From: Actinomycetaceae bacterium | Lineage (GTDB): Bacteria; Actinomycetota; Actinomycetes; Actinomycetales; Actinomycetaceae | DNA length: 36,620 bases | Assembly: GCA_017934115.1 (NCBI GenBank) | Contig: JAGBKC010000087.1 | Location: 1 to 36,620, forward strand | Direction: 5' to 3' | In this document: positions 6,786 through 30,579 of the stretch, piece after piece | Numbering within the stretch: the stretch's first letter is position 1 | How the letters are laid out: each line of letters begins with the position of its first letter | Translations under genes and position numbers: made by a program | The notes under the pieces: model-generated | What the model was told of the DNA's origin: nothing | The model's database searches: none | Seen by the model: the letters and a program-made list of their open reading frames with translations, nothing else

Positions 6786-7718
6786 CTAGGAGCTATAAAT
6801 ACCTTCTCGCATTATATTCAAGGATTCATCAAGATCTTTCGGATAAGGAGCTTCGAATGTCATCCATTCTTCCGAGAGCGGATGAGTAAATGATAGACGT
6901 CGCGCATGCAACCATTGTCGCTCTAAATGCAAGCGCCGAGATATGCTTGGATCAGCGCCGTACACTCCATCACCTACACACGGATGTCCAATTGCGCTCA
7001 TATGAACACGAATTTGATGAGTTCTACCTGTTTCCAGGTTTACTTCTAAAAGAGCAGCGCCAGGCATAACTTCAAGAGTTACATAATGCGTGATAGAGGG
7101 ACGTCCACCCTCAACGATAGCCATTTTCCACTGCTTTGATCCCGAATGACCAATTGGCGCGTCGACCGTTCCCTTAAATGGATCTGGATGCCCCTGCACA
7201 AGAGCGTGATACACTTTTTTCACCTTACGATAACGAAAAGCATCTTTGAGAACAGAATAAGCAGTATTTGATTTTGCAAGTACCAAACATCCGCTTGTTC
7301 CTACATCAAGACGATGAACGATTCCATGGCGCTCTTGAGGACCATATTCGCAAAGCATCACACCCATATCTCTTAAGGTTCCTAATACATCTGGACCTTC
7401 AAAATTAAGGGAAGGATGCGAGGCTAATCCATGCGGCTTATCAATGACGACAATATCATCATCTTCATATAACAAAGGAATTTCGGCGTCTGAACTGCGA
7501 AAAACAACTTCTTTCTTCATTGGCAATTCAACATCTAAAATAGATCCGGCAACTACTTTTTCGGATTTTTTAAGTGGTTTCCCATGAAAAAAAATTTTGT
7601 TCTCATCACACATTTTCGCTACTGTTGAGCGACTTAACCCTGTCATGACACTCACAGCAGCATCTGTGCGCATACCGCCCAAACCATCAGGAACCATATA
7701 CATATGACTATCACTCAC
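6786..7718 (-). CDS. RluA-family 23S rRNA pseudouridine synthase (RluD-like)
   Basis: 310 residues. An N-terminal S4 domain (MTGLSRSTVAKMCDENKIFF, then GKPLKKSEKVVAGSILDVEL) leads to the RluA catalytic domain with the active-site motif GIVHRLDVGTSG (catalytic Asp at about residue 136) and the RTHQIRVHMSAIGHP signature near 235-250. The family converts specific uridines in 23S rRNA to pseudouridine; the S4 plus catalytic layout fits RluD, but the target base cannot be read from sequence. Its start overlaps the end of lspA by 8 bases, the usual actinobacterial lspA-rluA coupling. The next gene, dnaE, is 75 bases downstream. Confidence 0.95.
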   Translation of the reverse strand: MSDSHMYMVPDGLGGMRTDAAVSVMTGLSRSTVAKMCDENKIFFHGKPLKKSEKVVAGSILDVELPMKKEVVFRSSDAEIPLLYEDDDIVVIDKPHGLASHPSLNFEGPDVLGTLRDMGVMLCEYGPQERHGIVHRLDVGTSGCLVLAKSNTAYSVLKDAFRYRKVKKVYHALVQGHPDPFKGTVDAPIGHSGSKQWKMAIVEGGRPSITHYVTLEVMPGAALLEVNLETGRTHQIRVHMSAIGHPCVGDGVYGADPSISRRLHLERQWLHARRLSFTHPLSEEWMTFEAPYPKDLDESLNIMREGIYSS

Positions 7719-8316
7719 GAAGATCCTCCTCGTTAGTTTCAGCAGATGAAATGCTCATCACTCGAACATTATCAGAAGAATCTTGATGAATAAAAAGAAC
7801 ATAAATAGCAACGACAATAACGCCAATATTGATGGCAATATCCGCAACATTGCCCGTAACAGTATTGCCATATGTAATAAAATCAACTACTTCCCCACGC
7901 GCAAAGCCTGGAGCACGTGTAATGCGGTCAATAAAATTACCTATCACACCACCAAAGACGATACTTAAACCTGTGCGCAATAAAGGATGAGAATACTTCC
8001 ATGCCACTACAGGGATAATCAGGAGAACAATAAAACTAAGCAAGGTAAAAACATAGGTATAACCAGTAGCGAACGAGAAGGAAGCTCCAGCATTAAACCG
8101 CAAATTAAAGGACAAAAAAGGAAGAAGTTCTATTCCTCGAATATCAGATAATGCACGAATAGCCCATATTTTTGTGAACTGATCTGCTAATACAATTAGA
8201 AATGCAAGAACCATGTAAATAACAACAGAAAGAATTTTCTTCTCTTTCTTGTCAACACCACCATAAATGACACATAAAAAAGTGGTGACACATAATGTAC
8301 CACCACTTTTTATCAA
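7711..8316 (-). CDS. lspA: Lipoprotein signal peptidase II (start uncertain)
   Basis: Membrane aspartyl protease that removes signal peptides from prolipoproteins after lipidation. Visible motifs: DQFTK after the first membrane helix, FNAGASFSF, GGVIGNFIDRI, then the catalytic Asp pair in EVVDFITYG and NVADIAINIGV. Four membrane helices fit the family. The C terminus overlaps the pseudouridine synthase gene by 8 bases. The start is a problem: the given start is TTG at 8316, without a ribosome site and upstream of the divIVA terminator hairpin; the next in-frame ATG (8217) would cut into the first helix. The expected start near the KKEKK stretch (about 8255) has only GTT or ATT codons. The protein from about residue 20 on is certain; the true start is not. 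Confidence 0.9.
   Translation of the reverse strand: MIKSGGTLCVTTFLCVIYGGVDKKEKKILSVVIYMVLAFLIVLADQFTKIWAIRALSDIRGIELLPFLSFNLRFNAGASFSFATGYTYVFTLLSFIVLLIIPVVAWKYSHPLLRTGLSIVFGGVIGNFIDRITRAPGFARGEVVDFITYGNTVTGNVADIAINIGVIVVAIYVLFIHQDSSDNVRVMSISSAETNEEDLRE
8276..8313 (-). terminator. Rho-independent terminator after divIVA, inside the presumed lspA leader
   Basis: An 11-bp perfect stem: AAAAAGTGGTG (on plus, ending at 8287) pairs with CACCACTTTTT (8301-8311), loop of about 13 bases. Read on the minus strand it is followed by six T. The divIVA stop codon is 10 bases upstream, as expected for its terminator. It lies between the TTG start and the first membrane helix of lspA, so read-through or a promoter past it is needed for lspA expression. 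Confidence 0.75.
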
Positions 8317-26768: not shown

Positions 26769-28445
26769 TTACATACGTTCTGGTGCTTGGACACCTAAAA
26801 GTTCTAATCCATTCCTAAGTACTTGGCCAGCTGCATCATTGACCCACAGGCGTGTTCTGTGCAGGTCTGTAACCTCTTCATCAGCACGTGGCGTGACGCG
26901 AGCTTTTCCATACCATGCATGATATGCACCAGCAACTTCTTCCAAGAAACGTGCAATTCTATGTGGTTCGCGCAATCGTGCAGCTGATGAAACAATTTCT
27001 GGGAATTTAGCGAGCACTCCAAGTAGATGTACATCTGCTTCTTCTAATAATTCTGGAGTAAAGGCATCAGTGCGACAAACATTGTATTGTTGCGCATTTC
27101 TGTCAACAGAACATGTACGCGCATGTGCATACTGCACATAATAAACTGGGTTATCATTCGTACGAGAAGAAATAAGATCAAGGTCTAAATCAACTGATGA
27201 ATTAACCGAAGAACGTACAAGTGAATATCGTGCTGCATCTACTCCGACGAGTTCAACTAAATCTTCCATGGTCACAACGGTTCCAGCGCGTTTTGACATA
27301 CGCACCGGCTTACCATCGCGCACAAGGTTAACAAGTTGACCGATAAGAATTTCCATATTCTCACCCGTGCCAGCTGTATCACCAAAAGCGCGCGCCATAG
27401 CATACATACGTCCAACATAGCCATGATGATCGGCACCTAACATATAGACACACTGGTCTGCTTTTCTGCCTCTTTTATCCAAATAATAAGCGATATCACC
27501 AGCAAAATATGCTGCTTGACCATCGGATTTGATAATTACACGGTCTTTATCGTCTCCATAACGCGTTGACATTAACCATAGGGCTCCATCTTTTTCTTCA
27601 ATCACACCTCGTGCACGCAAGATATCGATTGCTTTTGCCACAGCACCTGATTCGTGAAGTGATTGTTCGTGGAAATATACGTCAAATTCACTTCTGAATT
27701 CATGAAGTGATTGCTTAATTTCATCAAACATAAGCTGAACGCCGCGAAAACGAAAAATTTCTTGAGCTTGAGCATCGTCGATTGTTCTCGGATCTACATC
27801 ATCTTCTTTTATAGAATCCTCAACGACTTGTTGCGCTATATCATCAATATAGGTACCGCCATATCCATCTTCCGGCACAGGCCTGTTTTTCGCCTTTGCA
27901 AGTAGTGACGCCGAGAAACGATCAATCTGCCCACCATGATCATTAAAATAGTACTCACGCACAACTGTTGCACCCACAGCACTCAAAATGCGGGCCAGAC
28001 TATCTCCTACTGCCGCCCAACGTGCGCCACCAATATGAATGGGTCCTGTCGGATTAGCAGAAACATATTCAAGGTTGACACACACATCTTTATAGATCTG
28101 GCTTGTACCATATGCATCGCCTTCGTCAATAATGGTTTTTGCCAGTTCGCCCGTTGCACCTACAGCAAGGCGAATATTCAAAAATCCTGGACCTGCTATA
28201 TCCACAGAATCAATAGCTGAATTTTTACGCAATTCTTGAGCTATAAGTTCTGCTAAATCATGAGGTTTCATGGAAGCACGCTTCGCTAACTGCATGGCAA
28301 TATTGCTTGCCCAATCTCCATGTTCGCGTTGGCGCGGTCGTTCTACTTTTATCGTTGGCAGATCTCCATCAAAAACAAGAGTTTGTTGTTTTCTAAGCTC
28401 TTCGAGTATGTTAGATATGAGAGCATTTACATCTTCAGGTTTCAC
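26769..28445 (-). CDS. argS: Arginyl-tRNA synthetase
   Basis: 558 residues, class I synthetase charging tRNA-Arg. An N-terminal Add1 domain (about 1-110) is followed by the HIGH-type motif [23 protein letters not shown] (HIGG at about 137), the KMSKS-type motif RMSKRAGTV (about 387) and the DALR anticodon-binding C terminus ending LGVQAPERM. The only possible start is GTG 28445: an in-frame TAG lies six codons upstream or closer. No ribosome site is present, and a -10 box ends 8 bases upstream, so the mRNA is probably leaderless. tRNA-Arg(CCG) lies 228 bases away on the other strand. Confidence 0.97.
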
Positions 28446-28672: not shown

Positions 28673-28745
28673 GCCCTAGTAGCTCAAAGGATAGAGCGTT
28701 TGCCTCCGGAGCAGAAGGTTGCAGGTTCGAGTCCTGTCTGGGGCA
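28673..28745 (+). tRNA. tRNA-Arg (anticodon CCG)
   Basis: 73 bases fold as a full cloverleaf: acceptor GCCCTAG/CTGGGGC with one U-G pair, D stem GCTC/GAGC, anticodon stem TTTGC/GCAGA around loop CTCCGGA giving anticodon CCG, and T arm GCAGG-TTCGAGT-CCTGT. CCA is not encoded; the discriminator is A followed by CTTTT. The 227 bases between it and argS (28446-28672) hold no gene that I can see. It converges on the M23 peptidase gene. Confidence 0.96.
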
Positions 28746-28780
28746 CTTTTATTTTCTACAGTATTACACCTGATGAAAAT

Positions 28781-29875
28781 CTACGAACACGATGATGGCA
28801 AAAATTCTGCCCCATGATTCTTCATCCATGTCATCGGGTTCAGGGCGTTCATTGCCGCATCTCTTATTTCAAAATGCAAGTGTGGACCTGTGGATTTACC
28901 GTATGAACCTATAGCTCCAATGCGCTGGCCCGCCTTTATTTTCTGACCTTCTTTAACCACAACGTCACGTGCATACATATGTACGTACACACTATAAAAA
29001 ACTTCGCCATTTCGCTCATGCTTAATATAAAGTGCGTTATTAACGCCTCCAGTTTTTTCAACTACACCATCAGCAACAGAATATACAGGAGTACCTAATG
29101 AACCAGCAAAATCTTGACCTTCATGCATTCGATAAGTCTTATAAACCGGATCTGTACGCCCACCATATGAAGAAGTAAGCCGATATGTACTTTCACCAAG
29201 AGGCCAAACAAGCGTAGACGTTGACTGCCCATATGTAACAAGACCAGTACGCGGAGAACATGTCACACTAGGCGTAAGCTTACGATCAGCATACGCCAAA
29301 TCCTCTTCTTGCCCACTATCTGACTGCATTAACTGCATAGCTGAGTTTTGCACTTCACCCATACCATCACTCAAAGAGGCAACACTCTGAGAAGAATCAG
29401 AAGACACATAGCTTTTACTCATTTCAAAGCCGTAAATCCCTACACCGGAAGCCAAACAAATCGATGCAATAGCAGATGTCATTTGACGGGGAGTAAAACT
29501 TTGAGATGGGATAACAGGACGCGAAGAAGGAAGCATAGAAACTTCTGTTAATTCAGTTTTTTCCTGAACCGGAACAGAATCAACTTCTTCCTTCTTGACA
29601 TTTTCACGAGCCCATTCAAGTGAAGACGTTATTCTTCTATATTCGTATGCATCCATTCTTCTGCGCTGAGGTTTTGCATGTGAGGCAGAAAGAAAATCAG
29701 AAGACGAAGAAGAAACAGAAGAACGAGAACGTGAAATAACAGGAAGAGTAGGAAGATTTTCTTGCGCACGCATTTTTGCCATACGGCGCGGACTTATTCG
29801 AGTTCCATCACTAGAAAGATACATAGGTGGCACAGGAGGAGGAGTCATCCCAGCAGGTAATGCATGTTTACCCAT
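28781..29875 (-). CDS. Membrane-anchored M23 (LytM) peptidase
   Basis: 364 residues. A long cytoplasmic or disordered N-terminal part rich in Pro, Arg and Ser (about 1-130) leads to one hydrophobic segment (SAIASICLASGVGIYGF, about 134-150), a linker, and an M23 domain at about 230-355: zinc ligands in RMHEGQDFAGS (H and D) and HLHFEI, with the GTPVYSVADGVV, VVVKEGQKIKAGQRIG and STGPHLHF pattern. Such enzymes cut peptide cross-bridges in peptidoglycan; ligands look complete, so it is probably active and not an EnvC/NlpD-type activator. ATG 29875 is chosen because GGGAGG lies just upstream. It is divergent from the SGNH-fold gene. Confidence 0.93.
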   Translation of the reverse strand: MGKHALPAGMTPPPVPPMYLSSDGTRISPRRMAKMRAQENLPTLPVISRSRSSVSSSSSDFLSASHAKPQRRRMDAYEYRRITSSLEWARENVKKEEVDSVPVQEKTELTEVSMLPSSRPVIPSQSFTPRQMTSAIASICLASGVGIYGFEMSKSYVSSDSSQSVASLSDGMGEVQNSAMQLMQSDSGQEEDLAYADRKLTPSVTCSPRTGLVTYGQSTSTLVWPLGESTYRLTSSYGGRTDPVYKTYRMHEGQDFAGSLGTPVYSVADGVVEKTGGVNNALYIKHERNGEVFYSVYVHMYARDVVVKEGQKIKAGQRIGAIGSYGKSTGPHLHFEIRDAAMNALNPMTWMKNHGAEFLPSSCS

Positions 29876-29985
29876 GAAACCTCCCATATCATAATCTCGC
29901 CATCGATGATATTTTCGCTAAGGAAAACTTTAGCACTATCTAGCAAATATCGCCACAAAGAAAAATACATTATAAACTAGGATAC

Positions 29986-30579
29986 GTGAGTGATAATTTA
30001 CGGATCTTTTTTATTGGTGATGAATTAGTAGCAGGCTACGGAGATGCACGTGCATTAGGATGGACAGGACGCGTGCTTGCACGCACAAATCAAGAAGATA
30101 CCCCCATCATGAGCATTCCTCTTCCTTTTCCTGGCGAAGATACAGCGCACCTCATGATCCGCTGGCAAGAAGAAGTCAACAAGCGAATCGATCCTCAAGC
30201 TGATAACCGACTTGTTATTGGACTTGGCACACATGATATAGATAACGGACATTCTATGGCACGTTGCCGTCTTCATCTTGCCAATATTATCGACATTGCC
30301 GAACAGCGCAGCCATCTTTCCACTTTTGTTGTAGGCCCACCACCAAGGCGCGATGTTCCTGAAAACGTACAACGTCAACTTGTTAAAGTATATAAATACG
30401 TATGCGAACGTCGCAAAATTCCTTTTGTTGATACTTATACTCCTCTTGTTTCTCATAAACAATGGAATACTGATATGGCAATTTCTGGATCTTATACCCC
30501 ACGCCAAGCTGGTTACGGCCTTATTGCATGGCTCGTTCTGCATTCTGGATGGAATGAATGGTTAGGAATAGAAAACTAA
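29986..30579 (+). CDS. SGNH/GDSL-fold protein lacking catalytic residues
   Basis: 197 residues with the SGNH hydrolase outline: block I IFFIGDELVAGYGDARALGW (about 7-26), a strand and loop LVIGLGTHDIDNG (about 76-88) in place of block III GxND, and a last block DTYTPLVSHKQW to GSYTPRQAGYGLIAWLVL (about 149-184). The nucleophile Ser of GDSL is Glu13, the block III Asn is His83, and the block V DxxH is replaced by GSYTP. So either it is a non-catalytic relative or its active site differs. I recall close relatives with the same GDELVAG start in other actinobacteria, so this is likely a conserved subfamily and not a local decay. GTG start; TATAAA lies 10 bases upstream, so it may be leaderless. 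Function unknown. Confidence 0.85.
   Translation: MSDNLRIFFIGDELVAGYGDARALGWTGRVLARTNQEDTPIMSIPLPFPGEDTAHLMIRWQEEVNKRIDPQADNRLVIGLGTHDIDNGHSMARCRLHLANIIDIAEQRSHLSTFVVGPPPRRDVPENVQRQLVKVYKYVCERRKIPFVDTYTPLVSHKQWNTDMAISGSYTPRQAGYGLIAWLVLHSGWNEWLGIEN

Follow-up and report, generated by a model that had tools for sequence, protein, structure and literature searches.

A conserved, kgd-linked branch of SGNH-fold proteins with a degenerate active site and a probable binding role in an actinobacterial order

Results

Organization of the locus

The window, meaning the whole stretch of 36,620 nucleotides that we analysed, contains a reading frame that runs unbroken from a GTG at 29986 to a stop at 30579 and encodes a protein of 197 amino acids. 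The gene lies in a conserved locus with the following features:

26769 to 28445, reverse strand: argS, at the flank of the conserved argS - tRNA-Arg - M23 - (kgd) - SGNH locus
28673 to 28746, forward strand: tRNA-Arg(CCG), part of the same conserved argS - M23 - SGNH locus
28781 to 29887, reverse strand: M23 peptidase gene, the divergent neighbour; kgd-positive relatives have kgd between M23 and the SGNH gene
29888 to 29985, no strand: gap of 98 bp, the kgd deletion site; relatives carry kgd/odhA (about 3.7 kb) here
29986 to 30579, forward strand: pseudo-SGNH gene, 197 aa, GTG start, with blocks I, III and V degenerate

No kgd stands upstream of this SGNH gene, and none was found in the window genome. 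The argS, tRNA-Arg(CCG) and M23 genes are arranged as in kgd-positive relatives (for example, loci L182 and L183), which indicates that kgd was removed from between the M23 and SGNH genes. Because these flanks are retained, orthology by position holds. The earlier note on this DNA had remarked that the gene stands opposite a peptidoglycan peptidase gene; this M23 neighbour is uninformative, as the adjacency is a remnant left by deletion of kgd from a conserved locus. A partnership with the M23 peptidase was accordingly rejected, since the two genes are adjacent in few relatives and the kgd deletion explains it.

The SGNH fold is retained and the active site is degenerate

Residues 9-178 match nearly the whole Pfam model Lipase_GDSL_2 (PF13472) with 69 bits (E=9e-19; cut-off 32.9 bits), and the closest solved sequence in a phmmer search is Alr1529 (PDB 1VJG, E=1.4e-16). 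An AlphaFold2 model, for which 80 aligned orthologues served as input, reached a mean pLDDT of 95.6 and a pTM of 0.92. Its best fold matches are Alr1529 (1VJG/1Z8H, TM 0.83-0.85, with 0.85 for 1VJG), followed by other SGNH esterases and TesA. By its three-layer alpha/beta/alpha fold and its profile match, the protein belongs to the SGNH/GDSL superfamily, which bears out the earlier view that the fold had been kept. No signal peptide was seen, and the protein is presumably cytosolic.

Alignment with Alr1529 located the catalytic positions as follows:

30022 to 30024, forward strand: codon 13 (gaa, Glu), at the catalytic Ser position
30232 to 30234, forward strand: codon 83 (cat, His), at the block III Asn position
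30487 to 30498, forward strand: codons 168-171 (GSYT), replacing the block V DGxH

In the phmmer alignment with 1VJG, GDE lies opposite GDS, GTHD opposite GLND, and GSYTP opposite DGVHP. Block I therefore reads GDELVAG with Glu13 instead of the catalytic Ser, block III has His83 in GTHD instead of Asn, and block V has Gly168 for Asp and Thr171 for His. Block II retains its Gly, Gly50 in PFPGED, which pairs with the SGDT of TesA-like enzymes; Alr1529 has Arg there. We placed this Gly at position 50 by a gapless match of NLGIRRDTS to NASISGDTS of the TesA segment. The claim that every classical catalytic residue had been replaced thus holds for Ser, Asn, Asp and His but not for the block II Gly. 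Glu13 without a classical block V occurs all through the window's clade, so the pattern is neither peculiar to this genome nor an error of sequencing.

As in Alr1529, many canonical Alr1529-like relatives have Arg for Gly at the block II oxyanion position (SRNDH). The carriers belong to families f22, f33, part of f34, and f36 (loci L102-L117 and L162-L168), and other members of the same families have Gly.

Graded erosion of the active site across the order

Residue states at positions 13/50/83/168/171 were scored in 116 sequences of the order. Outgroups (f22, f33, f34, f87) and 1VJG show S-(G/R/M)-N-D-H, and f36, a family of the same class, shows S-G-(A/G)-D-H or S-R-N-D-H. Within the order, f4 and most of f17 retain Ser, several of them with a complete S-G-N-D-H. 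Families f2, f12, f13, f14 and f20 mostly have Glu for Ser and retain His and usually Asp, and f7, f10, f15 and f16 have Asp or Ala for Ser together with the block V Asp and His. Further losses mark the window's clade and parts of f5, f6, f8, f9 and f18, the window protein itself being E-G-H-G-T. Overall, block I carries a residue other than Ser in 104 of the 116 sequences; Ser, Asn and His are all missing in 56 and all present in 7. Glu13 is found in 86, with S, D, G, A, Q, R or P elsewhere, and the block II Gly is retained in 81. Positions 83, 168 and 171 vary freely.

The earlier note had named GDS and DxxH in close relatives as the observation that would speak against it. This was borne out only in part: such relatives were found in two other families of the order and in outgroups, whereas the same-family orthologues aligned at block I all lack Ser. 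We considered whether Ser was lost just once in the order. A quick tree requires at least four changes of the Ser state (and at least 12 of the His state), but a tree grouping all non-Ser rows outside f17 is not rejected (p-AU 0.50), and we therefore claim no count of independent Ser losses.

Two smaller departures from these patterns were observed. Locus L093 belongs to f17, whose other members mostly retain Ser, but has a lone Ser-to-Glu change and has lost block V (EGQPL); this looks like a parallel loss. In the f36 loci L102-L113, Ser, Asp and His are present, and 10 of 13 have Ala or Gly for the block III Asn.

An order-specific residue set accompanies the loss of catalytic residues

Comparison between groups revealed two conserved segments outside the catalytic blocks:

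30262 to 30294, forward strand: signature helix, codons 93-103 (RCRLHLANIID), with R93, R95, L96, A99, N100 and D103
30409 to 30414, forward strand: codons 142-143, Arg-Arg, in 116 of 116 sequences of the order

R95, L96, A99, D103, R142 and R143 are identical in all 116 members of the order. Nearly invariant are Q174 and Y177 (115 each), R93 and D84 (114 each), W182 and H157 (113 each), D163 (110), D12 (109), N100 (107) and H186 (106), and across the order there are 16 invariant and many nearly invariant columns. The signature R95-L96-A99-D103, RR142-143 and Q174 is complete in the window protein. R95, L96, A99 and N100 are missing from f36 and the outgroups, and RR142-143 and Q174 are common to the order and f36. 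Members of f4 and f17 carry both the new set and the catalytic Ser; the new constraint was thus in force while the active site was still intact, and it persisted after the site had gone. Some residues of the set may play a structural part, as in salt bridges.

These observations lead us to regard the protein as probably a conserved pseudo-esterase with a binding role, in which the ester-hydrolysing site is gone and the fold is kept. An earlier suggestion that it may be a binding protein is supported as the best reading, and we infer binding as its present mode of action. Judging by its conserved arginines, the protein may bind an anionic ligand, a nucleic acid or an acidic protein partner.

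Alternatively, the protein might have remained an enzyme whose pocket now uses a different chemistry, such as acid/base or metal-dependent catalysis involving D12, E13, D84 and a conserved His. The near-invariance of D12, D84, H157 and Y177 is consistent with this, as is the fact that Glu13 is the commonest substitute for Ser; its retention in so many members exceeds the expectation from pure drift and counts against the pseudo-esterase reading. However, many intact orthologues have D, G, A, Q, R or P at position 13, and since Glu13 is not invariant, new chemistry at this residue is unlikely. The free variation at positions 83, 168 and 171 likewise speaks against this alternative, and H157 is not a migrated replacement, because it already stands alongside the classical His in f4 and f17. 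Furthermore, no Ser, Cys or Lys is invariant among the 116 members, the nearest being S/T90, S/T53 and T/S34, which argues against a replacement nucleophile. Glu13, His83 and Thr171 as a new catalytic set were rejected, as not one of the three is conserved, and a different chemistry at GDEL, GTHD and GSYTP, as once proposed, finds none of its replacement residues invariant. We therefore consider an altered enzyme unlikely.

Selection and distribution

Among close pairs with measurable dS, dN/dS (Nei-Gojobori) ranged from 0.02 to 0.13. These pairs included some without the catalytic Ser, Asn and His (L009/L011, 0.03; L012/L014, 0.12; L010/L019, 0.08). In comparisons with the window protein itself, synonymous sites were saturated (pS 0.75-0.86, pN 0.20). 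The protein is maintained by purifying selection, and the earlier remark that this is not a decaying gene was correct.

Orthologues were found in 83 of 99 genomes of relatives and, by profile search, in 243 of 297 genomes of the order. Family f19 and almost the whole of f3 lack the gene, as do several f20 genomes and nine genomes from six genera of f1. Several genera have thus lost it, and it is dispensable there; among the SGNH-less genomes, no replacement gene common to all was seen downstream of kgd. A search at class and phylum level returned weaker, canonical relatives in f22, f33, f34, f36 and f87. Since the gene is kept by most families of one order, its function must matter.

In the single-contig genome G058, the orthologue (L191, about 7308-7887) is broken across three reading frames, and the adjacent lysA and argS are intact. 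This split is either true decay or a local sequence error.

Loss of the catalytic residues, absence from several genera and the apparent frameshift in G058 would fit a relict gene under weak constraint that is heading for loss. This explanation is very improbable given the low dN/dS, also in pairs devoid of catalytic Ser, Asn and His, the many invariant or nearly invariant columns, and the retention of the gene in a 1.46-Mb genome despite loss of its operon partner.

Linkage to kgd and its limits

In 105 of 128 orthologue loci from the order and f36, spanning many families, kgd/odhA lies directly upstream on the same strand, and in 21 loci the two genes overlap by 4 bp (ATGA-type). The kgd product, a 2-oxoglutarate dehydrogenase E1/E2 fusion, was identified by its Pfam domains and by NF008907 (1891 bits). 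In none of the 10 outgroup loci with canonical residues does kgd lie next to the SGNH gene. The linkage would suit a protein that is encoded together with Kgd and regulates the hybrid 2-oxoglutarate/pyruvate dehydrogenase complex or helps to assemble it.

Presence of the SGNH gene was set against that of kgd in 99 genomes (INDEPENDENCE from kgd): 72 have both, 11 the SGNH gene only, 13 kgd only, and 3 neither. There is no clear correlation between the two, so that a common function need not lie behind the operon. Every one of the 11 genomes outside f3 in this set that lack kgd carries the SGNH gene, in one of them (G058) frameshifted. Kgd, E2 acyltransferase and full-length AceE had no match in the window genome (G000), its two congeners (G001, G002) or G026; the window genome is 94.6% complete, so that a single absence is less sure than one shared with congeners. 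Lipoyl 2-oxoacid dehydrogenases thus appear to be missing altogether from these four genomes, in keeping with a metabolism that is purely fermentative. The present role of the protein there cannot lie on the 2-oxoacid dehydrogenase complex.

This pattern of presence and absence rules out strict dependence on Kgd or the PDH/ODH complex, and the binding partner cannot be Kgd alone. A factor of the dehydrogenase complex is hard to reconcile with an intact gene in the window genus and G026, where kgd, E2 and full-length aceE are lacking, and with its absence from 13 kgd-positive genomes. We judge this explanation improbable; such a role survives at most as one of two.

Discussion

We identified a degenerate branch of SGNH-fold proteins that extends across one order and has a specific gene neighbourhood. 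The fold and the kind of system are not new; the order-wide branch in this neighbourhood is. NCBIfam has no family naming this group, and we found no description of a kgd-GDSL operon or an actinobacterial SGNH pseudoenzyme in the open-access literature, although an earlier one may exist elsewhere.

The closest known relative, Alr1529 of Nostoc sp. PCC 7120 (1VJG, 1Z8H), shares with the window protein the motifs GDxxxxGxGDxxxLGWxGRV and RWxxE and a C-terminal W..W motif. Alr1529 has Ser, Asn, Asp and His, whereas the window protein lacks all four and carries the order-specific R93..D103, RR142-143, H157 and Q174. Alr1529 is reportedly a biochemically characterised hydrolase (Bakshy et al. 2009, cited in PMC10779480). 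The orthologues in f4, f17 and f36 are linked to the window protein by sequence, tree and kgd linkage, but most of them retain Ser and the block V His; the new residue set is present in f4 and f17 and partial in f36.

Canonical SGNH/GDSL hydrolases, including TesA, AlinE4, EstA and others, have the same alpha/beta/alpha fold and the block II Gly, and differ in possessing the Ser, Asn and His that the window protein lacks. In a Streptomyces SGNH lipase, replacing Ser10, Asn82 or His216 by Ala inactivated the enzyme, whereas variants with Ala at the block II Gly or at Asn213 of block V were still active (PMC10779480). The OSK domain of Oskar, described as similar to a catalytically inactive SGNH hydrolase and reported to co-elute with mRNA in vitro (PMC12247748), provides a precedent for binding by a dead SGNH fold. 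The OSK domain is eukaryotic and is fused in Oskar to a LOTUS domain, which the window protein lacks, and the match of the window protein to PF17182 is not significant (E=0.05, 13.3 bits against a cut-off of 27). The two probably lost their catalytic residues separately.

Under the pseudo-esterase reading, an Alr1529-like SGNH hydrolase would have come to sit downstream of kgd in the order and one related family, often translationally coupled to it. In the order, it may then have gained a second, non-hydrolytic role carried by R93, R95, L96, A99, N100, D103, R142-R143, H157, D163, Q174, W182 and H186. Active-site residues would subsequently have disappeared one by one in many lineages, with the new set remaining unchanged, and in the window's clade this loss would be complete except for the block II Gly. 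Binding would be done by an Arg-rich conserved surface or network that also carries Asn, Asp, His and Gln.

A more specific version of this scenario is tentative, and we regard it as possible but doubtful: a so far unrecognised protein that uses a dead SGNH fold for binding or sensing throughout the order would have arisen in the kgd operon and acquired its new function before catalysis was lost. It would tune central carbon metabolism where kgd is present and act on a Kgd-independent partner in fermenters. If this holds, living species still display the intermediate steps.

In the literature we searched, few dead SGNH hydrolases are described as having a conserved new role, and the OSK domain of Oskar is the one clear case found. 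In the order studied here, living species show the whole path, from an intact site accompanied by the new residue set, through loss of Ser, to loss of Asp and His. The annotation of these genes as "GDSL esterase/lipase" is misleading, and the linkage to kgd provides a direct entry point for finding their function.
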